A DNA stretch of 64,000 bases from Pandoraea iniqua (lineage in GTDB: Bacteria > Pseudomonadota > Gammaproteobacteria > Burkholderiales > Burkholderiaceae), in assembly GCF_902459685.1 (NCBI RefSeq), contig NZ_CABPSF010000004.1:124001-188000 (forward strand). Direction: 5' to 3'. Below, in pieces: positions 1,095-52,820 of this stretch (position 1 is its first letter; the number at the start of each line of letters is the position of its first letter). Position numbers and translations under genes: made by a program. Below the pieces are notes generated by a model that saw only the letters and a list, made by a program, of their open reading frames with translations, searched no databases and was not told the DNA's origin.

Positions 1095-1550
1095 TTCGTG
1101 TGCGCACGCAGGTGCGGGAGGAGGGCGCAACAGTGAGCACGCCGGGCGTGCTACAGCCGGGGGGGCTTACACCTACGCGTTAGGCCGGGGTTTGCAGTGA
1201 GAACCACAGATGGCGAAACAGACATCGATTCTGTCAGTCTGGCGGTGACTTGTAATTGTAAAAATCGCTCAAATGACGAGAATCGGAATCGTCCGATACG
1301 GTGTTACGTGATATCCCAAGCCATTTTTGGCATTCATGCGCATGATTTCAGCATTCGGACATCGCTGATCAATCACCCGCCAATGCCTCATCAATCGCAC
1401 ATCGATACTTCGCGTTTTCCCCACCCCCGGCCTTGAAATCCGAGCTTGTAGCAGGGAATATTTTTCGCTAGTATTTTAGGCATAAACTATTTACGATTTA
1501 ACAAAGATCGACGTGAACGGTGCGTGGTCTGTGTTTTCCGGAGGGTGGAG
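1095..1550. other. Intergenic region between divergent tpsB and the aryl-CoA operon
   Basis: No gene is supported in these 456 bases. The left part is GC-rich and is the leader of the minus-strand tpsB gene. The right part (about 1200-1550) is AT-richer and carries the presumed promoter of the aryl-CoA operon. A short plus-strand frame (1197-1436) has no ribosome site or family resemblance and was not called. Confidence 0.6.
1446..1474 (+). promoter_or_regulatory. Candidate sigma70 promoter of the aryl-CoA operon
   Basis: TTGTAG at 1446-1451 and TAGTAT at 1469-1474 are separated by 17 bp, in an AT-rich patch ending about 75 bp before the first start codon. The hexamers are only moderate matches, so this is an inference. 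Confidence 0.35.
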
Positions 1551-3893: not shown

Positions 3894-3902
3894 GGACGCG
3901 TG

Positions 3903-4736: not shown

Positions 4737-4800
4737 TAACAATCGAATGGCGTCGGATGGCCCGGGCACGGTGCCGATGACAGCCAAGGAGGCAAAGGTA

Positions 4801-5664
4801 ATGAGTGACGTGAAACTGACCATGGCGCACCACAAGCGCCCGTTCGCGAACTTCGAGGCCAAGCATTTTCTGTGGTCGGTGTCGAACGACGCGCAAGGGC
4901 GTCCGAGCATCGGCACGATCACGCTGAACCGGCCCGACAAGAAGAACCCGCTCACGTTCGACTCGTACGCCGAGCTGCGCGATCTGTTCCGTGGTCTGGT
5001 CTACGCGACGGACATTAAGACGGTCGTCGTGACGGGCGCGGGCGGCAACTACTGCTCGGGCGGCGATGTGCACGAAATCATCGGCCCGCTCACGCAGATG
5101 CGCATGCCGGAACTGCTCGACTTCACGCGCATGACGGGCGATCTCGTCAAGGCGATGCGTGCGTGTCCGCAACCGATCATCAGCGCAATCGACGGCATTT
5201 GCGCCGGTGCGGGCGCGATGATGGCGTTGGCTTCGGACATGCGTTTTGGCACGCCGCAGACGAAGACGGCATTCCTCTTTGTGCGTGTGGGGCTGGCCGG
5301 TGCCGATATGGGCGCCTGCACGCTGTTGCCGCGCATGATCGGTCAGGGCCGCGCATCGGAACTGCTGTACACCGGTCGCGTGATGACGGCGGAGGAGGGG
5401 CTGCAATGGGGCTTCTTCAACGCGTTGCACGATGGCGGCGCGGTGCTCTCGGCAGCGCAAACGCTGGCCGACCAGATCGCCTGCGGCCCGACGTTCGCAC
5501 ACGGCGTGACCAAGAAGCTGCTGCATCAGGAGTGGAACATGGGCGTGGACGAGGCCATCGAGGCCGAAGCCGAAGCGCAGGCCATCTGCATGCAGACGCA
5601 GGACTTCCGCCGCGCTTACGACGCTTTCGTCGCGAAGCAGAAGCCGGTATTCAAGGGCGACTGA
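4801..5664 (+). CDS. Enoyl-CoA hydratase/isomerase (crotonase) family protein
   Basis: A crotonase-fold protein of 287 residues. The oxyanion-hole regions are [15 protein letters not shown] and [20 protein letters not shown]. In the pathway it would hydrate or hydrolytically open an alicyclic enoyl-CoA. The start at 4801 is chosen because AAGGAGG at 4786-4792 lies 8 bases upstream; the frame is open back to 4747, but that ATG has no ribosome site. It lies 64 bases after the SDR gene and 13 before the acyl-CoA dehydrogenase. Confidence 0.85.
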
Positions 5665-5677
5665 GGCGAGCGAAACG

Positions 5678-6886
5678 ATGAGCCAGAACACGACGCACAA
5701 CGTGCACGCCAGCACCCCGCAGAACGCCCGCAATGGCGACTTCCTCGCGTGGCCGTTCTTTGACGATGCGCATCGCCAGCTCGGCACGCGACTCGACGCG
5801 TGGTGCACGCAAGAGCTGCATGTCGATCATCACGCCGACACCGATGCGACCTGCGTGTCGCTGGTGCGCCAGTTGGGTCGCGCGGGTTGGCTGAAGTACT
5901 GCGTGCCGGCCAGCCACGGCGGCGCGCTCGACAAACTGGATTCGCGCGCGCTGTGCGTGCTGCGCGAGACGCTGGCCCGTCACGATGGGCTGGCCGACTT
6001 CGCCTTCGCGATGCAAGGGCTGGGCAGTGGCGCCATCACGCTCGCTGGCAGCGACGATCTGAAACAGCGCTATCTGCCGCGTGTCGCGGCGGGTGAGGCG
6101 ATCGCGGCATTCGCCCTGTCGGAACCCGAGGCCGGCTCGGACGTCGCCGCTATGGCTTGTACGGCGACACTCGACGGCGATCACTACGTGCTCGACGGCG
6201 AGAAGACGTGGATCTCGAACGGCGGCATCGCGGATTTCTATTGCGTGTTCGTGCGTACTGGGGAAGCGCCGGGCGCGCGTGGCATCAGCGCCTTTGTGGT
6301 CGACGCGGACACGCCGGGGCTGACGATTGCTGAGCGCATCGACGTGAGCGCGCCGCATCCGCTCGCGCGGCTCAAGTTCGACAACTGCCGGGTGGCGGCG
6401 TCGCAACGACTGGGAGAGGCGGGGCAGGGCTTCAAGGTCGCGATGATGACGCTCGACATTTTCCGCGCATCGGTGGCAGCGGCGGCGCTGGGTTTCGCGC
6501 GCCGAGCACTGGACGAAGGGCTGGCTCGTGCCAAGTCGCGTCAGATGTTCGGTCAGACGCTTGCCGACTTTCAACTGACGCAGGCAGCGCTGGGTGACAT
6601 GGCGACGTCCGTGGACGCGGCGGCGCTGCTGACGTACCGCGCGGCATGGCAGCGCGATGTGCTGGAGCAGCGCACCACGCGCGAGGCCGCGATGGCGAAG
6701 ATGTATGCGACGGAATCGGCACAGCAGGTGATCGACCGGGCGCTGCAAATGTTTGGTGGTGCCGGGGTGGTGTCGGGCGCCATCGTGGAACGGCTCTATC
6801 GCGAAATTCGCTCGCTGCGAATTTACGAAGGGGCTACGGAAGTGCAAAAACTGATCATCGCGCGCGAACTGCTCAAAGACGGCTGA
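5678..6886 (+). CDS. Acyl-CoA dehydrogenase family protein
   Basis: A 402-residue flavoprotein with the usual three acyl-CoA dehydrogenase domains. Recognisable segments are [26 protein letters not shown] and the C-terminal [10 protein letters not shown], whose Glu corresponds to the catalytic base of medium-chain-type enzymes. It would introduce or remove unsaturation in an alicyclic or dicarboxylic CoA ester in this pathway. The start at 5678 follows GAGGCGAG by a few bases and lies 13 bases after the hydratase stop. In these pathways such an enzyme normally passes electrons to ETF, which is not encoded here. Confidence 0.87.
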
Positions 6887-6968
6887 ACGCTGAAGACCGA
6901 ACGTTGACCGCCGGCCGCGGGCCGGGCTCATGCTGCATTGCTGGATTACCGGGGGCAAGGAGAAGCAC

Positions 6969-8612
6969 ATGGAACGATCTGGACATCTCGACACTTTCGC
7001 GCGCGACAATCTGCCGCCCGCAGATCAGTGGCCCGAGTTTCTGCTCGACAATCCCGACGTGGCGTATTCGGCGCGTATCAATTGCGCAGCGGAATTGCTC
7101 GATCGCACGATTGCGCAAGGGCGCGGCGATGCCCCGGCGATTTACTCGGTGGAGAACGGCCAGCCGACGACCACGTCGTATCGCGGCCTGCGCGAGATGG
7201 TCGACCGGATTGCTCATGTGTTGCGCAACGACATGGCACTGGTGCCGGGGAATCGCGTGTTGTTGCGCGGCCCGAACAATCTGTTCATGGCGGCGGCATG
7301 GCTCGCGGTGATCAAGGCGGGTCTGGTCGGTGTGCCGACGATGCCGCTGTTGCGCGCGAAGGAACTCAAGCAAATCATCGACAAGGCGGAAGTCAGCGCC
7401 GCGCTGTGCGACGGCCGTCTGAAGGACGAGCTGGAATTCAATCGCCAGACGGGGCACGATTATTTCTGTCCAGCGCTGACGCAGGTGGTGTACTTCCACG
7501 ATGCAGGTGAGCACTCACTGGAGGCCCGCATGGCACGTCAGCCGGCGAGCTTCGAGGCGTGCGACACGGCGGTGGATGACGTCTGTCTGATTGCGTTCAC
7601 GAGCGGCACGACGGGGCAGCCGAAGGGCACGATGCACTTTCATCGCGACGTGCTCGCGATGTGTGATCTGTTCCCGCGCCACGTGCTGAAGCCGGGCCCG
7701 GACGATATCTTCTGCGGCACTCCCCCGTTAGCGTTCACTTTCGGTACAGGCGGCTTGCTCACGTTCCCGTTGCGTGTGGGGGCGGCGACGGTGCTGCTCG
7801 AAAAACTCACGCCGGACTCGCTGTTGCAAGCGATTCAGGACTATCGCGCGACGATCTGCTTCACGGCGCCGACGTTTTACCGTCAGATGGCGGGTTTGGT
7901 GGGTAAGTACACGCTAACGAGTCTGAAGAAGACGGTCTCGGCGGGCGAAGCGTTGCCGGATGCGACGCGCCAGCTGTGGAAGCAGGCGTCGGGCATCGAG
8001 ATGATCGACGGGATCGGCGGCACGGAGATGATCCACATCTTCATTTCGGCCGCGAACGGCGACGTGGTGCCGGGCGCCATCGGCAAGCCGGTGCCGGGCT
8101 ACATCGCGATGATCGTTGACGAGAACATGCAGCCGCTGCCCCCGGGCAAGGTGGGCAAGCTCGCGGTGAAGGGCCCGACAGGGTGCCGTTATCTCGCGGA
8201 TTCTCGCCAGAAGAACTATGTGAAGCAAGGCTGGAATCTGCCGGGCGACACGTTCATGTGCGACGAAGCGGGCAATTACTACTATCAGGCGCGCTCGGAC
8301 GACATGATCGTCTCGGCGGGCTATAACATCGCAGGCCCGGAAGTGGAGTCGGCACTGTTGCAGCACCCCGCGGTCGCAGAGTGCGGCGTGGTGGGGGCGA
8401 ACGACGACGCGCGCGGTCAGATCGTGAAGGCGTATGTGGTACTCAAGCCGGGGCAACCGAGCGACGAGGCCATGGTGAAGGCGCTTCAGGAGTATGTGAA
8501 GGCTAACATCGCGCCTTATAAATATCCGCGTGCCATTGAATTCGTGGACGCGCTGCCACGCACGGAAACGGGTAAATTGCAGCGCTTCAAGTTGCGGCAG
8601 ATGGCGCAGTAA
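6969..8612 (+). CDS. Benzoate-CoA ligase family AMP-forming ligase (probable 2-aminobenzoate-CoA ligase)
   Basis: A 547-residue ANL-superfamily ligase with the AMP-binding P-loop TSGTTGQPKG at about 211-220, a DGIGGTEM adenylation segment, and the C-terminal hinge/lysine region ending RTETGKLQRFKLR. It resembles benzoate- and 2-aminobenzoate-CoA ligases, and would start the pathway by making the aryl-CoA thioester from an aromatic acid, ATP and CoA. ATG 6969 is preceded by AAGGAG; an upstream ATG at 6930 lacks one. The 82-base gap from the dehydrogenase is the longest within the operon and could hold extra regulation. Substrate preference is inferred from the adjacent monooxygenase/reductase. 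Confidence 0.87.
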   Translation: MERSGHLDTFARDNLPPADQWPEFLLDNPDVAYSARINCAAELLDRTIAQGRGDAPAIYSVENGQPTTTSYRGLREMVDRIAHVLRNDMALVPGNRVLLRGPNNLFMAAAWLAVIKAGLVGVPTMPLLRAKELKQIIDKAEVSAALCDGRLKDELEFNRQTGHDYFCPALTQVVYFHDAGEHSLEARMARQPASFEACDTAVDDVCLIAFTSGTTGQPKGTMHFHRDVLAMCDLFPRHVLKPGPDDIFCGTPPLAFTFGTGGLLTFPLRVGAATVLLEKLTPDSLLQAIQDYRATICFTAPTFYRQMAGLVGKYTLTSLKKTVSAGEALPDATRQLWKQASGIEMIDGIGGTEMIHIFISAANGDVVPGAIGKPVPGYIAMIVDENMQPLPPGKVGKLAVKGPTGCRYLADSRQKNYVKQGWNLPGDTFMCDEAGNYYYQARSDDMIVSAGYNIAGPEVESALLQHPAVAECGVVGANDDARGQIVKAYVVLKPGQPSDEAMVKALQEYVKANIAPYKYPRAIEFVDALPRTETGKLQRFKLRQMAQ

Positions 8613-10384: not shown

Positions 10385-11404
10385 TTACTGCTTTTCGCCC
10401 AACCGGCCCCACAGACGCAGGCGCGACACGCCCCCGTCCGGGATGATGTTGAACCGGATGTGCGTGATCGCACCCAGCTTCTGAATCTGCTCTTCAAAGA
10501 AGAACTGCTTGTCCATCGCCAACTTTTGCTCGGGCAACAACACGGGCCAGAACATGGACTGCGTGATCAGCGACTGCTCGGTGCCGCCCGTGACGTACGC
10601 GCCCTGAATGGAGCAGCGGTCAGGGAAGTTGCCCTTGAAGTGCGCAGTATCGACTTCGATCTTGCCGATCTCACCCGGCTGCGCCAACGCGATGATGGCC
10701 CAGTCGTTACCCGGCTCACGGCGACGGCGCGTCTCCCAGCCATCGCCCATGTTGACGCCACGGCCGGGCATCAACAGGTTCGAGGCCAAGCCGAAGTGCT
10801 GGTTGTTGGCCGCGACGACATAGCCGCCGTTTTCCATCGCGATCAGGTCGATCAACTCGTCGCGCGAGCGATTGTTCCAGTCGCTCTGCGGCAAGCCGTA
10901 CAGGCGCAGGCGCGCCAGACCACCGTCCGGATACAGGTTCACACGCACGTGCGTGGCCGGGCGCTGGCTGGTGATGTCGTGGTAATGGTGCGAGTTGCCT
11001 TGCAGCGTGGTCGAGGCGAGCAGTTCGAACCACTCGGCGTTGTCGGCCGGGGCACCGTCTGGGCTGTAGCAGCCTTCCAACGAGGCGGCCGGCGGGAAGT
11101 TGCCGGTGAAGTGGCTGGTGTCGAGATCGACACCGAACAACACGCCCGGGCGCGCCAGCTTGACGATGCACCAGTCGTATCCGTTGACGCGCTTACGACG
11201 CGTCTCCCAACCGTCCATCCACTTGCCGTTGTCGTCGTACTTGCCGGGGATGAACACGGCAGGGTCGGGGTTGAGCATGCGCTCTTTGGCCGCGAAGAAT
11301 TCGTCGCTGGCCACCAGTGCCTGTGCACCCAGACGCGGGTCAGCCAGATTGACGTAACGGCGCACAAATTCCGGTGCGTTCGGGTCTTGCGGGGCGAGGG
11401 CCAT
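10385..11404 (-). CDS. alc: Allantoicase
   Basis: A 339-residue allantoicase, which hydrolyses allantoate to ureidoglycolate and urea. The protein shows the family's internal duplication: two jelly-roll repeats each with a DGWETRR segment ([22 protein letters not shown]), a (V/I)D-T-(S/A)-H-F-x-G-N-F-P segment, and a (L/I)-x-P-D-G-G-(L/V)-(A/S)-R-L-R-L-(Y/W)-G segment. The start at 11404 lies 11 bases after AGGAG. It precedes allA by 109 bases and follows dctA, all on the minus strand. Urea release implies a urease elsewhere. Confidence 0.93.
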
Positions 11405-11429
11405 GTTGCGTTGAACTCCTGATGAAGTG

Positions 11430-11455
11430 GCCGACGCCGTGGGGGTGGCGTCGGC
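11430..11455 (-). repeat. Intercistronic stem-loop between dctA and alc
   Basis: A perfect 9-bp stem, GCCGACGCC (11430-11438) with GGCGTCGGC (11447-11455), lies between the dctA stop and the alc start. No T-run follows on the minus strand, so it could stabilise or pause the transcript rather than end it. Confidence 0.5.
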
Positions 11456-13180: not shown

Positions 13181-13948
13181 ATGCGAATGAAAGACACGGT
13201 GGTACTCGTCACGGGCAGCGCGCAGGGTATCGGACGCGCGATTGCCATCCGGCTGGCGCAGGAAGGCGCGCGCATTGTGGTGGAAGACCGGCAGGACAGC
13301 GCGATGGCGGAGCAGACGCTGGATGCGGTGCGCAAGGCCGGTAGCGATGGTTGTGTGATCGCCGGTGACGTCGGGCGCGTAGCGGATGTTCAGGCGGTGG
13401 TGGCGAAGGCGGTCGAGCAGATGGGGCGGCTGGACGTGCTGGTCAATAACGCCGGGGTGGAGCGGCGCGCAGCCTTTCTGGATGTGACGGAAGCCGACTA
13501 CGACCTCGTGCTGGACATCAACCTGAAAGGCGCGTTCTTTCTGACGCAGGCGTTTGTTAAGCACCTGCGCGATACGAAGCGCGGCGGGCGTATCGTGAAC
13601 GTCAGCTCGGTGCACGAGGAGTTGCCGTTTCCCCACTTCACCAGCTACTGCGCCAGCAAAGGCGGCATGAAGATGATGATGCGCAACCTCGCCATCGAAC
13701 TCGCGCCGCTCGGTATTACGGTGAATAACGTCGCACCCGGCGCGGTCGGCACGGCGATCAATCAGCAACTGCTCAAGAACAAATCGGAACTCGACGCGCT
13801 GCTCGCTAACATTCCGCTGGGCCGTCTCGCCGATCCGAGTGAAGTGGCTAACGCGGTGCTGTTTCTCGCGTCGCCGGAAGCCAGTTATGTGACGGGGACG
13901 ACGGTGTTCGTCGATGGCGGTCTGCTCTGGAACTATTCGGAGCAATGA
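13181..13948 (+). CDS. Glucose 1-dehydrogenase-like SDR
   Basis: A 255-residue classical SDR with TGSAQGIG near residue 11, NNAG near 89, and the catalytic [21 protein letters not shown] segment (Ser, Tyr, Lys). The SVHE and [19 protein letters not shown] segments are close to NAD(P)-dependent glucose 1-dehydrogenases, which make gluconolactone. AGGGAG at 13170 precedes ATG 13181. It is followed after two bases by a trehalase, so the pair would turn cytoplasmic trehalose into glucose and then gluconate. Substrate is inferred; SDR specificity is hard to read from sequence. Confidence 0.75.
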
Positions 13949-13950
13949 CC

Positions 13951-15588
13951 ATGACCGACACCGCGCAACGCACGCTCTCGCAAGGGGGCATGACGCCGGA
14001 AGTCGCGCATGTCGCGCCCTCGGATGTGCTCACGCCGGCCGACCGGTATCAGGAGCTGTTCGTCGCCGTGCAGACGCAGCGCATCTTCCCCGACAGCAAG
14101 ACGTTCGTGGACTGCGTGCCGAGACTGGCGCCAGAGGAGGTTCTCCGGCGTTATCGCGATGACGTGGGCCGCCCGGGCTTCGATCTCTCAGCGTTCGTTT
14201 CCGGTCATTTCACGATGGAGCGCATTCCCGACAGTCACTATGTGTCGGACCCCTGGCAAGGACTGGTCGCCCATATCGATGGTCTCTGGGACGTGCTGAC
14301 CCGGCTGCCGCAAGCGCACCCGGCCGACAGTTCGCTGCTGCCGTTGCCGCAGCCCTACGTGGTGCCCGGTGGACGCTTTCACGAACTCTATTACTGGGAT
14401 TCCTATTTCACGATGCTCGGCCTCGCGCAAAGCGGACGCCACGACCTGCTCGTGAATATGGCCGACAACTTCTCGTTTCTCATCGATACGTATGGCCACG
14501 TGCCGAACGGCAACCGCACGTACTACCTGAGCCGTTCGCAGCCCGCGATGTATGGGCTGATGATCGAGCTCTTCGAGTCGCACGGCGTGGCGCGTGCGGT
14601 CCGCTATTTGCCGCATCTGCGACGTGAGTACGCCTACTGGATGGAAGGGGAGGACTCGCTCGCCGCCGGTGACGCGTTCCGTCATCTGGTGCGCCTGCCC
14701 GACGGCGCGCTGCTCAATCGCTATTGGGACGAACGCGATACGCCGCGCGAGGAGGGCTATCTGGAAGACGTGAATACGGCACTGCATGCGCCCGCGCGCA
14801 ATGCTGGGGAGGTGTATCGCGATCTGCGCGCCGGGGCGGCGTCGGGCTGGGATTTCAGCTCGCGCTGGCTCGGCGACGCGAACGATCTCTCGACGATTCG
14901 CACGACGGCGATTCTGCCGGTCGACTTGAATAGCTTTCTGTTTGCCACGGAGCGCCAGATCGCACGCCTTAGCGAAGCGGCCGGTGATACGGAGCAAGCG
15001 CAAGCATTCGCGGCGCGCGCCGACGCGCGTCGGCAGGCCATGACACGCTATCTCTGGAGTGAGGACGACGGTGCGTTTATGGACTACGACTGGCAACTCG
15101 GGGAGATTCGACGCCAAATGACGGCGGCGATCGCCGCGCCATTGTTTGTCGGCATGGCTTCGCGTGAAGAGGCCCATCGCACCGCACGCGCGATGGCCGA
15201 TCGCCTGATCGCGGCGGGCGGGCTCCGCACTTCAGAGGCATCAATGCAAACCTCGAGCCTTCAGCAATGGGACCCGCCTAACGGCTGGGCGCCGCTGCAA
15301 TGGATCGCCATTCATGGCCTGCGCAAATATGGCGAGAATCGGCTGGCGACGGATATCGCCCATCGCTGGCTCGCAACGGTCGGGGCGCTTTACACGCGGG
15401 AGAGCAAGCTGGTGGAAAAGTACTCGCTGCACACCAGCGACGCGATGTGCGCCTGTGGCGGCGGGGGCGGGGAGTATCCGTTGCAGGATGGCTTCGGCTG
15501 GACGAACGGCGTGGTGCGGCGCCTGCTCGGCGATCATCCGGAACACCACGCGCACAAGGCGCAGGCACGCGGCCGGCCGCGGGGGTAG
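13951..15588 (+). CDS. Trehalase (glycoside hydrolase family 37), cytoplasmic type
   Basis: A 545-residue GH37 trehalase, hydrolysing trehalose to two glucoses. Both family signatures are present: PGGRFHELYYWDSY at about 139-152 and QQWDPPNGWAPLQW. Catalytic residues match the E. coli enzyme: Asp in SGWDFSSRWL and Glu in LVEKYS. The glycine-rich GGGGGEYPLQDGFGWTNG follows. There is no signal peptide, so it should act in the cytoplasm like TreF rather than TreA. ATG 13951 lies 8 bases after GGAG; the ATG at 13945 overlaps the preceding stop and is also possible. Confidence 0.92.
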   Translation: MTDTAQRTLSQGGMTPEVAHVAPSDVLTPADRYQELFVAVQTQRIFPDSKTFVDCVPRLAPEEVLRRYRDDVGRPGFDLSAFVSGHFTMERIPDSHYVSDPWQGLVAHIDGLWDVLTRLPQAHPADSSLLPLPQPYVVPGGRFHELYYWDSYFTMLGLAQSGRHDLLVNMADNFSFLIDTYGHVPNGNRTYYLSRSQPAMYGLMIELFESHGVARAVRYLPHLRREYAYWMEGEDSLAAGDAFRHLVRLPDGALLNRYWDERDTPREEGYLEDVNTALHAPARNAGEVYRDLRAGAASGWDFSSRWLGDANDLSTIRTTAILPVDLNSFLFATERQIARLSEAAGDTEQAQAFAARADARRQAMTRYLWSEDDGAFMDYDWQLGEIRRQMTAAIAAPLFVGMASREEAHRTARAMADRLIAAGGLRTSEASMQTSSLQQWDPPNGWAPLQWIAIHGLRKYGENRLATDIAHRWLATVGALYTRESKLVEKYSLHTSDAMCACGGGGGEYPLQDGFGWTNGVVRRLLGDHPEHHAHKAQARGRPRG

Positions 15589-40630: not shown

Positions 40631-41464
40631 TCAGGCGTTTTGCAGCTTGCTGAGCAGTTCCGGTCCGAGGAAGTGACGCGCGTAACGCGGGTTCATGTCG
40701 GACAGGCGGAACATCGTCAGGAAGTCGGCCGTATTGAAATCGGGGTCCCAGGCCGGGGCGCCGCAGATGCGGGCACCGAGGCGCAGGTAGCCCTTGACCA
40801 GCGCGGGCGGCTCGACGTCGAGGCCCGATTGCAGTTCGTTGATCGGCAGCGCGATGCGCGGGACGGCGTGATACTCGGCCGGGGCCATGGCGCTATCGCT
40901 GTCTTGCAGCTTGCGATACAGGCTGGCGGCGTAGTGGCCACCGTCGGCCATGGGCACGCTGGCGCAGCCGAGCATGGTCTCCAGACCGTTACGTACCATG
41001 TACTCCGCCAGACCGCTCCAGAGGGCCATGATGACGGCGCCGTTGCGGTAGTCGGGGTGCACGCACGAGCGGCCGGTCTCGAGCATCTTGGGGCGCAGAT
41101 GGTCGAGGCGAGAGAGGTCGAATTCGCCCTCGGAGTACAGACGGCCGAGGCGTTTGGCCTGATCGGGGGGTAATACGCGGTAGGTGCCGACAACCTTGAG
41201 CGAGTCCTGATCGCGAACGAGCAGGTGATCGCAGTATTGGTCGTATTCGTCGACGTCCAGGCCTGCCGGGCCTTTGACCGAAGCGCCCATTTCTTCGGCG
41301 AAGACCTGATATCTCAGGCGTTGGGCTTCACGAAGCTCGCTTTCGTCGCGTGCCCACGCCACAGCCAGATTCGGTTTGACAGGCGTTTCAGGACGAGGAA
41401 GACGCCTCCGCGACGTGGGGGTCAGCGAAGAGAGCGGCATGGTGGGGTTCGGCAGGTCGCGCAT
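40631..41464 (-). CDS. olsB: GNAT-fold N-acyltransferase, probable L-ornithine N-alpha-acyltransferase
   Basis: A 277-residue protein of the hemolysin-type/OlsB acyltransferase family. Segments LREAQRLRYQVFAEEMGA, DQYCDHLLVRD, VGTYRVLPPDQA and ETGRSCVHPDYRNGAVIMALWSGLAEY match OlsB, which adds a 3-hydroxyacyl group from acyl-ACP to ornithine to make lyso-ornithine lipid. OlsA is not nearby. Ornithine lipids replace phospholipids during phosphate limitation in several bacteria, so its place next to the Pho genes is suggestive. The start at 41464 follows AGGG; the frame reaches 41515. Confidence 0.8.
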   Translation of the reverse strand: MRDLPNPTMPLSSLTPTSRRRLPRPETPVKPNLAVAWARDESELREAQRLRYQVFAEEMGASVKGPAGLDVDEYDQYCDHLLVRDQDSLKVVGTYRVLPPDQAKRLGRLYSEGEFDLSRLDHLRPKMLETGRSCVHPDYRNGAVIMALWSGLAEYMVRNGLETMLGCASVPMADGGHYAASLYRKLQDSDSAMAPAEYHAVPRIALPINELQSGLDVEPPALVKGYLRLGARICGAPAWDPDFNTADFLTMFRLSDMNPRYARHFLGPELLSKLQNA

Positions 41465-42478: not shown

Positions 42479-43405
42479 TCACTCCACCCCCATTTGCCCG
42501 CGATCATTGATTTCGCGGATGAGTGAGCGCAGCGCGCTGACGATACGCTCGGTTAAGCCTTCGGGTGGACGTTGCTTCGCCCACACCAGTCCCACATCCA
42601 TCGACGGCACGCTCGTGCTCAGATCCCGCCGCAAGATTCGTCCGCCATCGATCGACCACGGGCGATAGACCAGATCCGACAGGATCGACACGCCGTAGCC
42701 CTGTGCGACCAGACTTCGGATCGACTCGATAGACCGCGTGCGGAAATGCACGACCGGTTCGACATGCGCCGCATGCCAATAACGCTCGACCGTCTGCACG
42801 TGTTCATCCATATCCAGTAACAGAAAGCGCTGACCTCGAACGTCATCGAGCGTGACGCTCGCCTTGTCGAGCAACGGGTGCCCGGGGCTCGTCCAGAGCC
42901 GGCGCGTGGAGCGCAACATGGTCTGCAAGACTAGTCCATCGGCCACCACATTGGACACCAGCAGCAACGCCAGATCGATGTCGCCTGCGAGCACCGCCGC
43001 TTCCACCGCTTCGCGATCGCCCTCGATCAGCGTGAGTTCGACATTTGGAAACCGCTTGGACAACATGCTCGCCACCGACGGCAACAGATACGCCGAAATC
43101 GTCTCGGTGACGGCAAGCCGCAGGCGCCCGCCGGCATCGTCGGGCAAGGTGCGCGCTTCGTGAAGGGCGTCGTCGGTGGCGTTCAGAATGCGATACGCAT
43201 GCCGTAGAAACCGTTCTCCCGCCTCGGTTGGCCGCAACCCCTTCGCATGCCGGACGAACAACTGCGCACCCACGATCACTTCCAGATTCTGCAAAGCAAT
43301 CGTCAGCGACGACTGCGACGCACTGCACCGTTCGGCCGCCCGCATGACCTGCCCGGTCTCGGCCACAGCCACGAAATACTCGATCTGACGCAGAGTTGGC
43401 TTCAT
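42479..43405 (-). CDS. LysR-family transcriptional regulator
   Basis: A 308-residue LysR protein. The N-terminal helix-turn-helix is at about 3-62 (LRQIEYFVAVAETGQVMRAA, SASQSSLTIALQNLE) and the effector domain starts near residue 92 (GRLRLAVTETISAYLLPSV). It is divergent from the molybdopterin fusion gene across a 98-base AT-rich gap and is very likely its activator. The inducer is unknown. Confidence 0.92.
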   Translation of the reverse strand: MKPTLRQIEYFVAVAETGQVMRAAERCSASQSSLTIALQNLEVIVGAQLFVRHAKGLRPTEAGERFLRHAYRILNATDDALHEARTLPDDAGGRLRLAVTETISAYLLPSVASMLSKRFPNVELTLIEGDREAVEAAVLAGDIDLALLLVSNVVADGLVLQTMLRSTRRLWTSPGHPLLDKASVTLDDVRGQRFLLLDMDEHVQTVERYWHAAHVEPVVHFRTRSIESIRSLVAQGYGVSILSDLVYRPWSIDGGRILRRDLSTSVPSMDVGLVWAKQRPPEGLTERIVSALRSLIREINDRGQMGVE

Positions 43406-43503
43406 TTAAAAAATCAATATTGCAAAGTATATTTTTTATATTAGTAATAAAAAGAGCCGCTGTATAGCATCGGAACATCGATTCCTATAGAGACGGACGG
43501 GAC
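43406..43503. promoter_or_regulatory. Divergent AT-rich promoter/operator between lysR and the Mo-fusion gene
   Basis: The segment 43406-43455 is AT-rich in a GC-rich neighbourhood. It contains AATATTGCAAAGTATATT, an imperfect dyad with a T-N11-A core (TATTGCAAAGTATA), as expected for LysR binding. Promoters for both directions should lie here. Confidence 0.45.
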
Positions 43504-46500
43504 ATGGTTCAGGAGGTCAAGCCCGGGTTCTGTACGCTGTGCAGATCCCGCTGCGGCACGCTCAATCGCGTGGAAAACGATGCACTGATTGCGGTCGAAC
43601 CCGATCCCTCGCATCCGAACGGCGCTGCCATGTGCCGCAAGGGGAAGGCTGCGCCCGAGCTCGTGCATCACCCTGACCGGCTGACGACACCGTTGCGCCG
43701 GACCGCGCCGAAGGGCGCAGACGATCCCGGTTGGCAGCGCATCTCGTGGGACGAAGCCCTGACCGAGATCGCAACGCGGCTCGGCGACATCCGCCGCGAA
43801 AGCGGCGCCCATGCCGTGGCCTTCGGCGTGACGACCCCGAGCGGGACGCCGCTGTCCGACAGCATCGACTGGATCGAGCGCTTCATCCAGGTCTTCGGCA
43901 GCCCGAACACCGTCTACGCGACAGAAATCTGCAACTGGCACAAAGACTTCGCGCACGCCTTCACGTTCGGTTGCGGCATGCCGACCGCCGACTACGCGCA
44001 GGCGGACGTGATCATGCTCTGGGGTCACAATCCAACGAGTACATGGCTGAGTCAGGCCAACGCCATCGGGCGCGGGCGTGTCCGCGGCGCGAAGCTGCTC
44101 GTTGTCGACCCGCGCAAGACGCCGCTTGCCGCCGACGCCGATGCGTGGCTGCCGGTGCGTCCCGGCACCGATGCCGCCTTGGCGCTCGGTCTCGCACGCC
44201 GGTTGATCGACACCGGGCGCTATGACGAGACGTTCGTGCGCCGGTGGACCAACGCTCCCTTGCTCGTGCGCAACGACAACGGCCGCTTCCTGCGAGCGCA
44301 GGATGTGAAGATGCCGGACAACCGCGCGTTGCCCGACGCCTTCGTGATCTGGGACGAGACCAACGGCGCACCGCAGGCCTACGACACAACGCACGCACTA
44401 AGTCGCGACGCCGCCAATCGCGCGGCCCTGCGTGGCGAATTTATCCTGAGCGCCAACGATGGCTCGCACATCAGTTGCCGGCCGGCATTCGATCATCTTT
44501 GCGAAGGGCTGGCAGATTACGATCCGGCGGCGGTGAGTGAATTGTGCGGCGTCTCGCCTGAACAACTCGAAGCCGCCGCCAACCTTTTCACCGGCGCCGA
44601 ACGGGTGGCCTATCACGCGTGGTCCGGCGTGGCGCAGCATGCAAACGCGACGCAAATCGAGCGTGCCGTCGCCGTGCTGTATGCGCTCACAGGCAGTTTC
44701 GACCGGCGCGGCGGCAACCGCGTGATGACGCGTCAACCGGTGAATGCCGTCAGCCAGCACGATCTGCTGAGTCCCGAGCAACAGGCGAAGGCGCTGGGCA
44801 TCGATGAGCGTCCGCTGGGGCCGCCTGCGCGCGGCTGGGTGACGGCACGCGACACCTACCGCGCGATTCTCGACGGCGATCCCTACCGCGTGCGAGCGCT
44901 GTTCTGCTTCGGCACCAATGTGCTGGCTTCGCAGGCCGACTACGAGATGGCGCGCGACGCGCTAGAAGCGCTCGAATTCCACGTCCACTGCGATCTGTTC
45001 GAGACGCCCTCGGCGCGCTACGCCGACATCCTGCTGCCGGTGAATACGCCGTGGGAGCGCGAAGGGCTGCGCCCGGGTTTCGAAATCGACGACCGGGCCG
45101 ACGCCTTGATTCAACTGCGCCAGCGCATGGTGTCGCCGCGCGGCGAATCGCGCAGCGACAACGACATCGTGTTCGATCTCGCCGTGCGTCTGGGGATGGG
45201 CGACGCCTTCTTCGGCGGCAGTCTCGAGGCTGGCTGGAACCACCAGCTCGCGCCAACCGGACTCGACGTTCAGACGCTGCGCGCGCATCCCGAAGGCATC
45301 TCACGTCCGCAGCCGCAGTACGAGCGCAAGTACGCCCGCACCGAGGCCGGCAGTGTGCGCGGGTTTGCCACCGAAACCCGGCGCGTCGAACTGTATTCCG
45401 AGCGGCTGCTGCGTCACGGCTATCCGCCGGTGCCGGTGCATGTGGCCGCGCGTGGCACCGCCGAAGGCGACACGACACATTTCCCGCTCGTACTCGGTTC
45501 AACCAAGAACGGCTACTACTGCCACAGCCAGCATCGCGGACTCGCGAGTTTGCGCATGCGTGCCCCCGATCCGGTGATGCATTTGCACCCGTCGTTGGCA
45601 GCACAGAAGCAAATTGCAGCGGGCGACTGGGTGAGGGTGACGACTCCCGTCGGTGTCGCACGTTTTCGCGCCGCGTTCGACGAGGGACTCGCAGCCGATG
45701 TGGTGCTCGCGGAGTATGGCTGGTGGCAGGCATGCGACAGCGTGGGCCGTCGCGGCTTCACCATGGCCGGTGAGCAGTCGAGCAATTACAACGCGTTGGC
45801 AACGGCGCAGGACATCGATCCCATCAGCGGATCGTCGCCGTTGCGGTCCCTGCGCTGCGACATTTCACGCGATGCGGCGAGCGATCCGGCGCATCGGCCG
45901 TGGCAAGGCATGGCGCGATTTCGCATTGCCAGCCTTACCCCTGCGGCCGACGGCGTTCGCGGCATCGCGTTCGAGCCGCTCGACGATGTTGGGCTGCCTG
46001 ACTATCTGGCGGGACAGCATGTGACGGTGCGCGTACCGATTCCGGGCCACGCGCAACCGCTGACGCGTGCCTATTCGCTCACCGGACCGGCCAACGAGCG
46101 CGAGCGTCGCGGCTATCGCATTGCCGTGCGCCATCAGCAGGGGCGCACGCGCGAAGGCGAGGCGTTCGAGGGCGTGGTGTCGAGTTGGCTCAACACTGGC
46201 GCACGTGTGGGCGATGTCATCGAACTGGGTGCGCCGTCGGGACGCTTTGTTCTGCCACTGCAAACCCGGCAACCGGTCGTGTGCTTCGCGGGCGGTATCG
46301 GCATCACGCCGTTTCTCTGTTATCTCGAGTCGCTCGCAGAGCAAGTTGAGCAAGTTGAGCAAGTTGAGCAAGCGACGGTGCCGCCCCCCGAGGTTTGGCT
46401 GCATTACGCGAACCGAAACGGTGCCACGCACGCATTTCGGGCGAGACTGGCCGCGCTCGCGGAGCGTCTGCCCGGCATTCACATTGTCAATTACTACGAC

Positions 46501-46983
46501 GCACCGCGCGAAGCCGACGTGCTTGGCCGCGACTACGCCACCGCCGAACGGCTGTCTGCCGCCGTGGTCTCCGACGACCTGATCGCACGCCGCGCACGCT
46601 TCTACCTGTGCGGTCCCGAGCCGATGATGGCGGCCGTGATGGGTGGTCTGGCCGCGCGTGACGTGCCTGCGTTCGACATGTTCAAGGAGGCGTTCCGCTC
46701 ACCGAGCGCACCGCGTGTCGATGCCGACGCCGCATGGCCGGTCACGTTCGCCCGGTCGGGGCGCGAAGCCGTCTGGACCCCCTCGCACGGCAGCCTGCTG
46801 TCGTTTGCCGAGTCGTTGGGGCTGACGTTGCCGAGCGGTTGCCGCGTCGGGCAATGCGAGAGTTGTGCCGTGCGCGTGCTGTCCGGCGAAGTCGATCACA
46901 TGAGCGACGTGGCGCTCGACGAGCCCGGCATGTGTCTGGCCTGTCAGGCCGTGCCGCGCGAAGCCGTCGTGATCGACGCCTGA
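43504..46983 (+). CDS. Molybdopterin oxidoreductase / flavin-NAD reductase / plant-type ferredoxin fusion protein
   Basis: A 1159-residue three-part fusion. Residues 1 to about 780 are a DMSO-reductase-family subunit. It has a [4Fe-4S] site (C10, C13, C17, C44 in CTLCRSRC and MCRKGK), a candidate Mo ligand Cys143 in ATEICNWHKD, and a C-terminal MGD-binding barrel (LVLGSTKNGYYCHSQHR). Residues about 795-1060 are a ferredoxin-reductase module with RAYSLTGP for flavin and CFAGGIGITP near 926 for NAD. The C-terminus is a [2Fe-2S] domain with C1113, C1118, C1121 and C1144 or C1147. The reductase-ferredoxin order is that of phthalate dioxygenase reductase. It looks like a self-sufficient NAD(P)H-linked molybdoenzyme; the substrate is unknown. 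There is no Tat signal, so it should be cytoplasmic. First gene of the cluster with an OCD enzyme and a permease. Confidence 0.85.
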   Translation: MVQEVKPGFCTLCRSRCGTLNRVENDALIAVEPDPSHPNGAAMCRKGKAAPELVHHPDRLTTPLRRTAPKGADDPGWQRISWDEALTEIATRLGDIRRESGAHAVAFGVTTPSGTPLSDSIDWIERFIQVFGSPNTVYATEICNWHKDFAHAFTFGCGMPTADYAQADVIMLWGHNPTSTWLSQANAIGRGRVRGAKLLVVDPRKTPLAADADAWLPVRPGTDAALALGLARRLIDTGRYDETFVRRWTNAPLLVRNDNGRFLRAQDVKMPDNRALPDAFVIWDETNGAPQAYDTTHALSRDAANRAALRGEFILSANDGSHISCRPAFDHLCEGLADYDPAAVSELCGVSPEQLEAAANLFTGAERVAYHAWSGVAQHANATQIERAVAVLYALTGSFDRRGGNRVMTRQPVNAVSQHDLLSPEQQAKALGIDERPLGPPARGWVTARDTYRAILDGDPYRVRALFCFGTNVLASQADYEMARDALEALEFHVHCDLFETPSARYADILLPVNTPWEREGLRPGFEIDDRADALIQLRQRMVSPRGESRSDNDIVFDLAVRLGMGDAFFGGSLEAGWNHQLAPTGLDVQTLRAHPEGISRPQPQYERKYARTEAGSVRGFATETRRVELYSERLLRHGYPPVPVHVAARGTAEGDTTHFPLVLGSTKNGYYCHSQHRGLASLRMRAPDPVMHLHPSLAAQKQIAAGDWVRVTTPVGVARFRAAFDEGLAADVVLAEYGWWQACDSVGRRGFTMAGEQSSNYNALATAQDIDPISGSSPLRSLRCDISRDAASDPAHRPWQGMARFRIASLTPAADGVRGIAFEPLDDVGLPDYLAGQHVTVRVPIPGHAQPLTRAYSLTGPANERERRGYRIAVRHQQGRTREGEAFEGVVSSWLNTGARVGDVIELGAPSGRFVLPLQTRQPVVCFAGGIGITPFLCYLESLAEQVEQVEQVEQATVPPPEVWLHYANRNGATHAFRARLAALAERLPGIHIVNYYDAPREADVLGRDYATAERLSAAVVSDDLIARRARFYLCGPEPMMAAVMGGLAARDVPAFDMFKEAFRSPSAPRVDADAAWPVTFARSGREAVWTPSHGSLLSFAESLGLTLPSGCRVGQCESCAVRVLSGEVDHMSDVALDEPGMCLACQAVPREAVVIDA
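46339..46372 (+). repeat. In-frame 9-bp tandem repeat (GAGCAAGTT)
   Basis: Three full copies and a seven-base partial copy encode EQVEQVEQVEQ at residues 946-956, just after the NAD-binding motif of the fusion protein. Unit length is a multiple of three, so copy-number change would alter protein length without a frameshift. Confidence 0.95.
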
Positions 46984-47017
46984 ATTTTCCATCCCATTTC
47001 GAAGAGGAATCTTGTTC

Positions 47018-47965
47018 ATGAAAATCATCGACGCCCAAGCCACTCGCGATGCACTGGCGTTCGGTCCGTTGCTGGACGCATTGCGCACCATGTTCATCGA
47101 GGGTTGCGAAGTGCCGTTGCGCCACACGCACGTCATTCCCGAGCCGGGGATGCAGGCCGGCATGACCGTGCTGATCATGCCGGCGTGGCAGCCGGGCGGC
47201 CTGATGGGCATCAAGACGGTGAACATTGCGCCGGCCAACGCGCAGCGTGGCGTGCCGGGGCTGCATTCGACCTATCTGCTCTACGACGCGAGTACCGGTG
47301 TGCCGCTCGCGCAGATGGACGGCAACGAAATCACGTCGCGCCGCACGGCGGCCGCCTCGGCGCTGGCTGCCTCGTATCTGGCGCGCGAAGACGCTTCGCA
47401 CCTTGCACTGCTCGGTGCAGGGCGCGTCGGTTCGCTGGTGCCGCTGGCGTACCGTGCCGTGCGTTCGATCACGCGTGTCAGCGTGTGGGATCGCGATGCG
47501 CAGGCGGCCGGGCGTCTGGTCGAGCGCTTGCAGGAACAGGGGCTCGATGCCGTCGTCTGCAAGAGCGCCCAAGCGGCTGTCGACGGTGCCGACATCGTCA
47601 CCTGCGCGACCCTCGCCACCGAGCCGGTGGTGCAAGGCGAGTGGCTTGCCCCGGGCGTGCATCTGGATCTGATCGGCAGCTTCACGCCGCAGATGCGCGA
47701 GGCCAGCGACTCGTGTTTCGCGGGGGCATCGTTGTTTGTCGACACCGAGGAAGCGCTGGCGAAATCGGGTGAGTTGCTCGGCCCGATGTCGCGCGGGGTG
47801 TTCTCGGCGCAGGACGTGCGCGGCACGCTTGCCGATCTGTGCCGCGCGGGACGCCTGCGTCGCGAAGCAGCCGGAGAGCGAACGGTGTGCACGGTGTTTA
47901 AGGCGGTCGGCACGGCGCTGGAAGATCTGGCAGCGGCCAAGCTCGTCTGGCAGGCAACGCAATAA
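47018..47965 (+). CDS. Ornithine cyclodeaminase/mu-crystallin family protein
   Basis: A 315-residue NAD(P)-dependent enzyme of the OCD/mu-crystallin family. It has substrate-binding segments PLRHTHVIPEPGMQ and GIKTVNIAP, the GNEITSRRTAAASALAA segment, the Rossmann motif LLGAGRVGSLVPLA and DLIGSFTPQMREA. Members include ornithine cyclodeaminases, alanine dehydrogenases and Delta1-pyrroline-2-carboxylate reductases; this one cannot be assigned safely. The start at 47018 is 9 bases after AGAGGA and 34 bases after the molybdopterin fusion gene, so the two form an operon. Confidence 0.85.
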   Translation: MKIIDAQATRDALAFGPLLDALRTMFIEGCEVPLRHTHVIPEPGMQAGMTVLIMPAWQPGGLMGIKTVNIAPANAQRGVPGLHSTYLLYDASTGVPLAQMDGNEITSRRTAAASALAASYLAREDASHLALLGAGRVGSLVPLAYRAVRSITRVSVWDRDAQAAGRLVERLQEQGLDAVVCKSAQAAVDGADIVTCATLATEPVVQGEWLAPGVHLDLIGSFTPQMREASDSCFAGASLFVDTEEALAKSGELLGPMSRGVFSAQDVRGTLADLCRAGRLRREAAGERTVCTVFKAVGTALEDLAAAKLVWQATQ

Positions 47966-48105
47966 GACTGACGTCGAACGCGACGGCAAGAAGTGGCAGG
48001 CGACGGCGTGCCGCAACCGAGGGGCAGGGGACTAGACGGAAACACGGGGCGGGCAGTGCGCGGTACGGCATGGCCGATCAATACACACATAAGGGAACGC
48101 AGGAA

Positions 48106-49554
48106 ATGAAACCGGGAACTTCACTATCGAGCACGATGGATGCGCCGCAAGACGGCGGCCCTCTGGAGCGTCTGGCGGCGTCGGTCACACGTTGGTCGGA
48201 ACGCTGGTTTCCCGACGCCTATCTGTTTGCGGCGCTGGCGGTCATCGTCTGCGCAGGCGGGGCGTTGGCGATCGGCGTGCCGGCCGTCAAGGTGGGGGTG
48301 GCGTTCGGCGACGGCTTCTGGAGCCTGATTCCGTTCACGATGCAAATGGCCATCGTGGCCATCTCCGGCTACGTGGTGGCGGTCTCGCCGCCGGCCGCGC
48401 TGCTCATCCGCAAGATGGCGGCATTGCCGCGCAGCGGTCGCAGCGCGGTGGCGTACGTGGCGTTCGTCAGCATCGTGCTGTCGTTGTTCAACTGGGCGAT
48501 CAGTCTGGTGTTCAGTGGCCTGCTGGTGCGGGCGATCGCACGGCGCGAGGACATTCGCATGGATTACCGTGCCGGTGGGGCAGCGGCGTATCTGGGCATG
48601 GGCGCGACGTGGGCGCTGGGGCTGAGCTCATCCGCGGCCCAGTTGCAGGCCAATCCGGCGAGTCTGCCGAAGGCGCTGGTCGAGATCACGGGCGTGATTC
48701 CGTTCTCGGACACGATCTTTCTGCCGCAGTCGATGGCAATCGCCGGCGTGCTGACGGTGGTGTCTGTCGTGCTGGCCTATTTCTCGGCACCGCGTGACGC
48801 GCGTGCGACGTTGGCCGCCGACCTCGGCGTGTCGCTCGACGATACGACGAAGACCTATGCGAAGCCGCAACGCCCGGGCGATTGGCTCGAGTACAGCCCG
48901 ATCGTCACGGTGCTGATCGTGGCACTCGGTGTGCTCTGGATCGGGCACGAGTTCACCACGAAAGACCCCTTGCTGGCGATCTCGAACCTGAACACGTACA
49001 ACTTCGTGTTCCTGATGCTAGGCATGCTGCTCAACTGGCGTCCGCGCCGCTTTCTCGACGCGATTGCGAAGTCGGTCCCGTCGGTGGCAGGTGTGTTGAT
49101 CCAGTTCCCGCTGTATGGCGGCATCGCGTATCTGCTGACCAAAGCGCCGGGCATCGACGGGCAGACGCTCTCGCATCATCTGTCGAGCTTCTTCGTGGCG
49201 ATCTCGTCGCAGTCGTCCTTCCCCGGCGTCATGGGCGTGTATTCGGCGGTGCTGGGCTTCTTCGTGCCGTCGGGCGGGGGCAAGTGGATCATCGAAGCGC
49301 CTTACGTCATGCAGGCCGCCAACGATCTGCACGTGCATCTGGGATGGGCGGTGACGGTCTACAACGCGGCCGAAGCGCTGCCGAATCTGATCAATCCGTT
49401 CTGGATGCTGCCGCTGCTCGGCGTGCTTGGTCTGCGTGCGCGCGACGTGGTGGGTTATACGTTCACGCAACTACTGGTGCACTTCCCGGTGGTGATCGTC
49501 ATGTTGTGGCTGCTGGCGCAAACGTTGACTTACCATCCGCCGGTCATGCCGTGA
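48106..49554 (+). CDS. Short-chain fatty acid transporter (AtoE / TIGR00366-like)
   Basis: A 482-residue integral membrane protein with about 11-12 hydrophobic segments, e.g. DAYLFAALAVIVCAGGALAIG and AYVAFVSIVLSLFNWAISLV. It resembles AtoE short-chain fatty acid permeases: NWAISLVFSGLLVRAI, FLPQSMAIAGVL, VPSGGGKWIIEAPYVM and AEALPNLINPFWMLPLLG. It likely imports a small carboxylic acid used by the upstream enzymes. AAGGGA at 48091 precedes ATG 48106; an ATG at 48070 without ribosome site would add 12 residues. It is followed 15 bases later by the convergent araC gene. Confidence 0.85.
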   Translation: MKPGTSLSSTMDAPQDGGPLERLAASVTRWSERWFPDAYLFAALAVIVCAGGALAIGVPAVKVGVAFGDGFWSLIPFTMQMAIVAISGYVVAVSPPAALLIRKMAALPRSGRSAVAYVAFVSIVLSLFNWAISLVFSGLLVRAIARREDIRMDYRAGGAAAYLGMGATWALGLSSSAAQLQANPASLPKALVEITGVIPFSDTIFLPQSMAIAGVLTVVSVVLAYFSAPRDARATLAADLGVSLDDTTKTYAKPQRPGDWLEYSPIVTVLIVALGVLWIGHEFTTKDPLLAISNLNTYNFVFLMLGMLLNWRPRRFLDAIAKSVPSVAGVLIQFPLYGGIAYLLTKAPGIDGQTLSHHLSSFFVAISSQSSFPGVMGVYSAVLGFFVPSGGGKWIIEAPYVMQAANDLHVHLGWAVTVYNAAEALPNLINPFWMLPLLGVLGLRARDVVGYTFTQLLVHFPVVIVMLWLLAQTLTYHPPVMP

Positions 49555-52250: not shown

Positions 52251-52820
52251 ATGTCTGCCGAGCAGAAGACGTCGCATCGCGGGTTCACCATCATCACCGT
52301 TCTCGAGCGGCTCTCTAAAGGCCGCGCGCGACTCTCCGCCAAAGTGCTGGCGAATGACGAAGGCCACAAGCAGCGGCTCGGCGGCAAGAAGCTGCTGCAA
52401 GCCAAGCGCTGGTTCGATCATTTCGCCGACGATCTGGCAGACCCCGTCATCGCCGGCCTCAAGCACACCATCGACCTCGAACTGGCTGCAGCAGCACGTA
52501 CGGCCGCCGCGAAAGCGAAGGTATCGGCCGATACCGCCAAGCCGGCAAAACCTGCCAAGGCGGCTAAGCTTGCTAAGCCTGCTAAGCCCACCAAGGCCAT
52601 CAAAGCCACTAAGTCCGTAAAACCCGCGAAGCCCGCCAAAGCGGCGACGCCAGCCAAATCCGCTAAACCCGCGAAAGCGACTAAGCCGGCTAAACCCGCC
52701 AAGCCGACGTCCCCCCAATCCGGCAAGCTGAGTAAAGTCGTCAAGCCGGCCAAGCAGGCACCGGTCGGCACACCCGCGGCAAAACCCTTGAAAACGGTCC
52801 CGGCGAGCGGCGCGGCCTGA
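52251..52820 (+). CDS. Lysine/alanine/proline-rich protein with histone H1-like tail
   Basis: A 189-residue protein. Residues 1 to about 90 look like a folded basic domain not assigned to a family (HRGFTIITVLERLSKGRAR, KKLLQAKRWFDHFADDL). Residues from about 96 are repeats built on K-P-A-K and K-A-x-K, like the tails of eukaryotic H1, AlgP or PhaF. It probably binds DNA or polyphosphate-like polyanions. AGGAGG at 52240-52245 precedes ATG 52251, a strong ribosome site suggesting good expression. Tail repeats invite length variation between strains. No functional partner is evident. Confidence 0.78.
   Translation: MSAEQKTSHRGFTIITVLERLSKGRARLSAKVLANDEGHKQRLGGKKLLQAKRWFDHFADDLADPVIAGLKHTIDLELAAAARTAAAKAKVSADTAKPAKPAKAAKLAKPAKPTKAIKATKSVKPAKPAKAATPAKSAKPAKATKPAKPAKPTSPQSGKLSKVVKPAKQAPVGTPAAKPLKTVPASGAA

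Follow-up and report, generated by a model that had tools for sequence, protein, structure and literature searches.

An apparently self-sufficient molybdoenzyme of Pandoraea iniqua and a tentative route from an imported acid to proline

Molybdenum (Mo) enzymes of the dimethyl sulfoxide (DMSO) reductase family normally take their electrons via partner proteins or membranes. Which reaction, then, is carried out by a member of the family that has an electron donor on its own chain, and on which substrate does it act? The question is raised by a gene at 43504..46983 (+) in a 64-kb stretch of Pandoraea iniqua DNA, the whole of which is called the window in what follows and within which all positions are counted. 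The gene is an uninterrupted open reading frame of 1159 codons, and its product, here called Mo-PDR, is a single-chain oxidoreductase with sites for Mo-bis(molybdopterin guanine dinucleotide) (Mo-bisMGD), [4Fe-4S], flavin, NAD and [2Fe-2S]. From this architecture and from the invariance of its sites, Mo-PDR is predicted to be a self-sufficient molybdoenzyme; it is conserved and apparently uncharacterised.

Architecture and cofactor sites of Mo-PDR

Six Pfam domains are found along the chain, all of them above cut-off. Three belong to the DMSO reductase family: Molybdop_Fe4S4 (PF04879, residues 5-56, 28.8 bits), Molybdopterin (PF00384, residues 59-560, 137.3 bits) and Molydop_binding (PF01568, residues 662-781, 69.6 bits). 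They are followed by FAD_binding_6 (833-915), NAD_binding_1 (929-1045) and Fer2 (1093-1151), that is, by flavin, NAD and C-terminal plant-type [2Fe-2S] domains with four Cys, in the order that characterises a module of the phthalate dioxygenase reductase (PDR) type. The flavin- and NAD(P)-binding domains (46000..46638 (+), residues 833-1045) also match the structures 2pia and 4eh1, and the [2Fe-2S] domain occupies 46780..46956 (+). The predicted structure of the whole chain has a predicted local distance difference test (pLDDT) value of 89.2 and a predicted template modelling (pTM) score of 0.87.

In an alignment of 80 sequences, the eight cluster cysteines, Cys143 and key residues of the flavin and NAD sites do not vary in any row. 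The [4Fe-4S] site (43531..43635 (+)) is assigned from this invariance and from Molybdop_Fe4S4; it consists of Cys10, Cys13, Cys17 and Cys44, with Lys46 close behind. Cys143 (43930..43932 (+)), within the motif E-x-C-N-W-H-K-D at residues 141-148, is the predicted Mo ligand by alignment to acetylene hydratase. The original prediction of three modules in one chain, with an unbroken set of cofactor sites and a Cys in the Mo-ligand position, is thereby borne out by domains, structure matches and conservation. The enzyme had also been suggested to be a cytoplasmic reductase, and this receives support: no export signal is seen in the sequence by eye, no signal predictor having been run. The home genome (6.34 Mb in 17 contigs) has eight Molybdopterin-family matches, Mo-PDR counted among them, and the Mo-bisMGD cofactor is therefore presumably made there.

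With these sites in place, NAD(P)H would reduce the flavin, and electrons would pass first through the [2Fe-2S] cluster near the C-terminus and then through the [4Fe-4S] cluster near the N-terminus to the Mo-bisMGD held by Cys143, where a small carboxylate would be reduced by two electrons. Such a chain, soluble and supplied by NAD(P)H, would lend itself to study and to use as a catalyst. Two other ways of using the same cofactors can be weighed here. If Mo-PDR were a formate dehydrogenase or another dehydrogenase, electrons would move towards NAD+; this is extremely unlikely, for although the structural matches include formate dehydrogenases, the usual direction in PDR-type modules is away from NAD(P)H. 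The formate dehydrogenase label itself is rejected, with Asn144 in 80 of 80 sequences where those enzymes have His after their Sec/Cys ligand, and with a TIGR01591 score of 234.3 against a cut-off of 666.25. It is also very unlikely that Mo-PDR adds water to an unsaturated acid in the manner of acetylene hydratase, the flavin/[2Fe-2S] module merely keeping the metal reduced, since a complete and conserved chain from NAD(P)H to Mo exceeds the needs of activation. As a label, acetylene hydratase fails at its catalytic Asp13, which aligns with Arg14, a residue present in at least 90% of the 80 rows.

Is the reductase module a working part of the enzyme? A tree of 106 Mo domains contains 90 rows with a reductase module, and 89 of these fall in one set, with a support of 98 in the Shimodaira-Hasegawa-like approximate likelihood ratio test (SH-aLRT). 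The ninetieth, from a Variovorax plasmid, has two adjacent genes, one for the Mo domain and one for an oxidoreductase that matches the reductase module, and a record of Variovorax RA8 is annotated with separate molybdopterin and PDR/VanB-family proteins. The split form therefore supports the view that the module acts as the electron donor of the Mo domain. The fused set adjoins 15 relatives without reductase module, in a tree whose very long outgroup branch makes the position of the root uncertain. No reductase module is present within the sequence stretch around any of these 15 loci (L140-L144 and L155-L164), and C-N-W/F-x-K-D surrounds the ligand in 11 of them. Nor do they give a functional clue, as nine annotated neighbours from six loci have no theme in common.

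Among the 25 NCBIfam families listed of 41 that matched Mo-PDR, none reached its cut-off. No characterised member of the family was found in open-licence PMC full text, a search outside which subscription papers mostly lie, and nothing on the architecture or on the operon described below was found in that literature; to this extent, the earlier view of the enzyme as a candidate for an undescribed system stands.

Operon partners and the proposed pathway

A search for the architecture and its neighbours across genomes, suggested together with the original prediction, placed the family in two phyla and also brought out an operon that the prediction had overlooked. Behind the Mo gene follows a gene for a reductase of the ornithine cyclodeaminase (OCD)/mu-crystallin family (47018..47965 (+)), for which ATG at 47018 is a more likely start codon than TTG at 47012, as several homologues in the alignment begin there with M-K-I. 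It scores 412.4 bits, against a cut-off of 322, on PRK06141, the model of a "bifunctional delta1-pyrroline-2-carboxylate/delta1-piperideine-2-carboxylate reductase", and just 108.9 against 400 on NF045512 (LhpI). Next comes a short-chain fatty acid transporter (48070..49554 (+)) with 295.7 bits on PF02667 (SCFA_trans), for which the cut-off is 27; on TIGR00366 it has 286.9 bits, below the cut-off of 575.75, and it is therefore named AtoE-like only.

On the other side of the Mo gene lies a divergent gene for a LysR-type regulator (42479..43405 (-)), identified by LysR_substrate and HTH_1. The two genes share a promoter region of 98 bp (43406..43503 (+)) with an AT-rich block, which is conserved between the window and seven Pandoraea loci. 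A palindrome of LysR type within it, AATAT-N8-ATATT (43416-43433), is a candidate LysR site; all eight sequences have it, with variation at one spacer base.

How general is this arrangement? A tblastn scan at E<=1e-3 of one genome for each of 84,980 species gave 375 relatives, fused or not. The best 80 of these and 15 plasmid regions made up a first set of 95 loci, which was searched by tblastn at any distance within the stretch. The reductase was found at 59 loci and the transporter at 64, with at least one of them in 33 of 50 genus labels. At 54 loci, none of them actinobacterial, LysR is matched on the strand that does not carry the Mo gene. Addition of 40 further stretches, followed by removal of the 15 without reductase module and of 7 duplicates, gave 113 non-redundant loci, a set in which close relatives, the seven Pandoraea loci among them, are kept. 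Counted by tblastn on the same strand as the Mo gene, the reductase gene lies within 150 nt of it at 53 of the 113 loci and within 2 kb at 64, and the transporter gene within 2 kb at 72. Both partners are found within 2 kb at 56 loci, at least one at 80 and neither at 33. In the home genome there are six OCD-family matches and one SCFA_trans match, and one of each stands beside Mo-PDR. The trio of Mo gene, reductase and transporter occurs in Pseudomonadota as well as Actinomycetota, and its order varies, with the transporter 5' or 3' of the Mo gene and the reductase likewise, so that the genes have remained neighbours while their order was reshuffled. These three points, few family matches in the genome, presence in two phyla and variable order, make a chance association improbable. 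Two side observations concern the reductase counts. In two Rhizobiales loci (L151, L153) a distant cyclodeaminase-family gene on the opposite strand falls outside the same-strand numbers. In two Streptomyces loci (L115:13971-14372 and L119:13596-14045) the reductase frame has just 134 and 150 aa and is possibly broken or mis-sequenced.

The substrates listed with the original prediction (nitrate, chlorate, N- and S-oxides, heterocycles) were open-ended, and the operon narrows them to a small imported acid, the product of which should suit a ketimine reductase of the delta1-pyrroline-2-carboxylate type. Consider now what the genes could do together. The acid would be imported by the AtoE-like carrier or, in some Alphaproteobacteria, by an ATP-binding cassette (ABC) importer of LivFGHM type; the Mo enzyme would turn it into delta1-pyrroline-2-carboxylate, the cyclodeaminase-family enzyme would reduce this to L-proline, and L-proline would go to glutamate through ordinary proline catabolism. 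Import, Mo-dependent reduction to delta1-pyrroline-2-carboxylate and formation of L-proline are put forward as the pathway of the operon tentatively, at a probability that falls somewhat short of even. We infer the electron path, the cyclic-imine intermediate and the reductive, catabolic direction from sequence and context, the last because PDR-type modules normally run in this way and because ABC systems with binding proteins import. A LivHM-type permease is nearby at 5 of the 113 loci, all alphaproteobacterial; the two ATP-binding genes of an ABC importer are present at a Comamonas locus, and the binding protein of the Xanthobacter importer has 3i09 and 3n0w as closest solved relatives.

The intermediate is most clearly pointed to by the second enzyme. 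Nine further reductases, picked for spread among the 59 loci, were tested, and eight of them pass PRK06141 with 381-440 bits. The ninth, from Pseudomonas daroniae (L103:15021-15968), is 31% identical to that of the window; it fails PRK06141 (148.2) and passes NF045512/LhpI (449.9 against 400). It begins 34 or 76 nt past the transporter gene, depending on the start codon, and no further pathway gene, judged by eye, stands behind it. A second Pseudomonas locus has the same arrangement, with a reductase 91% identical to it (L105:9897-10841), the LhpI model having been run on L103 only. At these two loci, a reductase of LhpI type thus takes the place of the PRK06141 type behind the Mo/transporter pair. 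Two separate recruitments, from distant paralogues, of one named activity are therefore the strongest single hint that delta1-pyrroline-2-carboxylate may be the intermediate. In the available text of PMC4113996, superfamily members from several clusters, which may or may not be those of the PRK06141 and LhpI models, reduce proline ketimine.

The pathway may be short, with two enzymes converting the acid, once inside, to a normal metabolite. Around 49 loci, 265 neighbours called as genes were tallied in two batches (at most six per locus, of 110-800 aa and within about 5.5 kb, smaller and larger proteins, PutA among them, falling outside). The 25 commonest Pfam families listed per batch are mainly those of regulators and transporters, from which the pathway seems short. 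A pathway with further enzymes was considered and rejected, as no enzyme family among those listed has more than 3 members per batch. At four Photorhabdus loci, where no reductase or transporter was matched by tblastn, a class-III aminotransferase gene lies downstream of the Mo gene (e.g., L072:13670-14953); the only other such match is in Streptomyces (L123), at 29% and on the opposite strand.

If L-proline is the product, one may ask whether genes for its degradation lie near. They do so at 4 of the 113 loci, in three genera and with three architectures. In Xanthobacter tagetidis (L089) the genes for the ABC importer, its binding protein, a small regulator, the reductase and Mo-PDR follow each other in this order on one strand, and a PutA-type fusion of proline dehydrogenase and aldehyde dehydrogenase lies 111 nt upstream of the importer genes, reaching the edge of the stretch. 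In Zobellella a trifunctional PutA is encoded on the other strand about 2 kb from the Mo gene, and in two Rhodococcus (L036, L116) proDH and pruA are found 5-7 kb away, also on the other strand. With one Pro_dh match per 6.34 Mb, as in the home genome, about 0.4 would be expected in 113 stretches of about 20 kb, by a rough estimate.

Which acid could be the substrate? Pyrrole-2-carboxylate, a small flat monocarboxylate, is favoured because C5H5NO2 with two hydrogens added becomes delta1-pyrroline-2-carboxylate, C5H7NO2. Judged roughly by heats of formation, the first step would cost a little energy with NADH and the second would release energy, which would account for the coupling to the reductase. 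Among the candidates pyrrole-2-carboxylate is the most likely, yet it is a guess and in itself rather doubtful. It is just as doubtful that Mo-PDR is an oxygen-independent pyrrole-2-carboxylate reductase that would dearomatise the pyrrole with NAD(P)H and have its product pulled onward to L-proline. If this were true, Mo-PDR would to our knowledge be the first member of this Mo family that dearomatises its substrate, and the route from a pyrrole acid to proline would be new; the operon offers a concrete and cheap test of the pathway. The microbial metabolism of pyrrole-2-carboxylate is called "known but poorly understood" in the available text of PMC12899673 (2026).

Several points weigh against the proposed pathway and its substrate. 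The delta1-pyrroline-2-carboxylate reductase activity of the operon enzyme is predicted, its name being given by homology, and ketimine reductases of this family are promiscuous. Proline genes stand beside just 4 of the 113 loci, and a proline dehydrogenase was found at none of the 20 loci added last, within their sequence stretches; the link to proline therefore comes from the first locus set only. Neither partner is within 2 kb on the same strand at the 33 loci mentioned above, among them those of enterobacterial plasmids, Photorhabdus and several Alphaproteobacteria, and the 20 loci added last divide into 10 with neither partner and 10 with at least one. At such loci the Mo enzyme may work in another setting as well, or substrates may differ across the family, which therefore may act on more than one. 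Pyrrole-2-carboxylate is guessed from stoichiometry only, and we know of no DMSO-reductase-family member that reduces an aromatic ring. There is also a known aerobic pathway in which pyrrole-2-carboxylate is oxygenated, not reduced, according to a title cited in PMC12899673.

The same operon evidence fits another reaction, which is the main rival and which we regard as unlikely, though well worth keeping in mind. Here the Mo centre would deoxygenate an N-oxygenated precursor, such as a cyclic nitrone, an N-hydroxy acid or an oxime acid, to a 2-imino acid, and the ketimine reductase would convert this to the amino acid. Removal of an oxygen atom is the classical reaction of DMSO-reductase-type enzymes, and the spontaneous hydrolysis of an acyclic imine could account for the 16 loci where a transporter, and no reductase, lies within 2 kb (72 against 56). 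Both reductase models, however, name cyclic imines, and we know of no abundant natural N-oxygenated precursor of proline.

It could also be that the partners are incidental and that Mo-PDR is a single-chain NAD(P)H-dependent reductase of nitrate (or of chlorate, an S-oxide or an N-oxide) for nitrogen assimilation or detoxification. The fold is common to nitrate and S-oxide reductases, one plasmid record (H24) is annotated nasC, and partnerless copies adjoin metal-resistance genes on two enterobacterial plasmids. But it would be left unexplained why 80 of 113 loci have a carrier for short-chain acids, a ketimine reductase or both next to the gene, and the relevant models all remain far below their cut-offs, which makes this explanation improbable. 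The label NasC/NasA/NapA is rejected at 149.0 against 1100 for NasC, 77.9 against 1000 for the halo form of NasA and 82.8 against 930.55 for NapA, and that of an S- or N-oxide reductase by the DmsA, BisC-family and TorA models. Nitrate or formate as substrate is thus not supported.

Distribution of the family and other genes in the window

How widespread is Mo-PDR? The best 80 of the 375 relatives come from Burkholderiales, Pseudomonas, Photorhabdus, other Gammaproteobacteria, Alphaproteobacteria, Rhodococcus, Streptomyces and other Actinomycetota, so the family ranges over Pseudomonadota and Actinomycetota; among these 80 the nearest named homologues, 86-96% identical, are from Pandoraea. Within the genus, 15 of 32 genomes have Mo-PDR at E<=1e-50, its own genome counted. 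The idea that the gene is a lone oddity of the window does not hold, as the architecture is widespread under generic names and has a conserved operon. In even samples, where the counts include the centre genome and unfused relatives, matches were found in 23 of 200 genomes of the family (E<=1e-150). At E<=1e-200 the order gave 13 of 399 and the class 4 of 369, and at E<=1e-250 the class of Rhodococcus gave 2 of 296 and the order of Xanthobacter 15 of 297. The distribution in these samples is sparse and looks like that of an accessory trait.

Plasmid records match Mo-PDR in 39 cases at E<=1e-60, and "molybdopterin-dependent oxidoreductase" is among the annotations in 22 of them. Location on plasmids together with near-identical copies in distant hosts suggests that the gene is mobile. 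Mo-domain sequences that are identical or nearly so are found in an E. coli plasmid, Leclercia, Thalassolituus, Alteromonas and a gammaproteobacterium (among L032-L034, L091-L093 and L095), and for the copies at these seven loci we take recent horizontal spread, on their sequences, to be the origin. The enterobacterial plasmid copies L032 and L033 are without operon partners and near metal-resistance genes. Several Klebsiella pneumoniae plasmid matches span residues 240-1159 only, and two other Pandoraea genomes carry a second, diverged copy (L028/L138 and L029/L139), 58% and 47% identical to that of the window.

Elsewhere in the window there are genes for aerobic, coenzyme A (CoA)-dependent aromatic acid metabolism at 1542-8612, with a salicylyl-CoA 5-hydroxylase/oxidoreductase model at 1429.8 against 1078 and a benzoate-CoA-ligase-like protein slightly below cut-off (356.0 against 375.25). 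An allantoicase is encoded at 10388-11452 (-) (463.9 against 277.9) and a trehalase at 13945-15585 (+) (TreF model, 753.1 against 512). An acyltransferase like the ornithine N-acyltransferase OlsB (40634-41464) is below cut-off, at 172.8 against 350. A protein of Lys/Ala/Pro repeats (52254-52820) has no NCBIfam match at E<=1e-10, and presumably resembles a histone-H1-like DNA-binding tail.

Comparison with known systems

For the second enzyme, the nearest known systems are the delta1-pyrroline-2-carboxylate reductases of the LhpI and PRK06141 models, which are passed by the operon's second enzyme in one or the other form. In the proline-ketimine reductase systems, as far as the available text of PMC4113996 goes, the imine comes from dehydration of trans-3-hydroxyproline, whereas here the Mo enzyme is proposed as its source. 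None of the neighbour families listed, the 25 commonest in each batch, is that of a trans-3-hydroxyproline dehydratase. The HudA decarboxylase, in the available text of PMC7976604, acts on pyrrole-2-carboxylate, the substrate proposed here. Known pyrrole-2-carboxylate enzymes are, as far as known, oxygenating or decarboxylating; they are not Mo enzymes and do not lead to proline.

The Mo domain is best matched, by sequence as well as structure, by the catalytic subunits of acetylene hydratase (2e7z) and polysulfide/thiosulfate reductase (2vpw). They share with Mo-PDR the Mo/W-bisMGD fold (W, tungsten), one [4Fe-4S] cluster and, by general knowledge of their cofactors, a Cys metal ligand, but at 22-27% identity they are without flavin or [2Fe-2S] module. 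NasA, NasC and NarB are like Mo-PDR in being cytoplasmic, in having [4Fe-4S] and Mo-bisMGD and in using NAD(P)H or ferredoxin as donor; they are unlike it in that the donor is normally a separate protein and in their gene neighbours. The order flavin, NAD and C-terminal [2Fe-2S] of residues 800-1159 is that of phthalate dioxygenase reductase (2pia) and PaaE. PDR and reductases of PaaE/BenC type, however, feed an oxygenase on a separate chain, whereas the likely acceptor in Mo-PDR is the Mo domain of its own chain.

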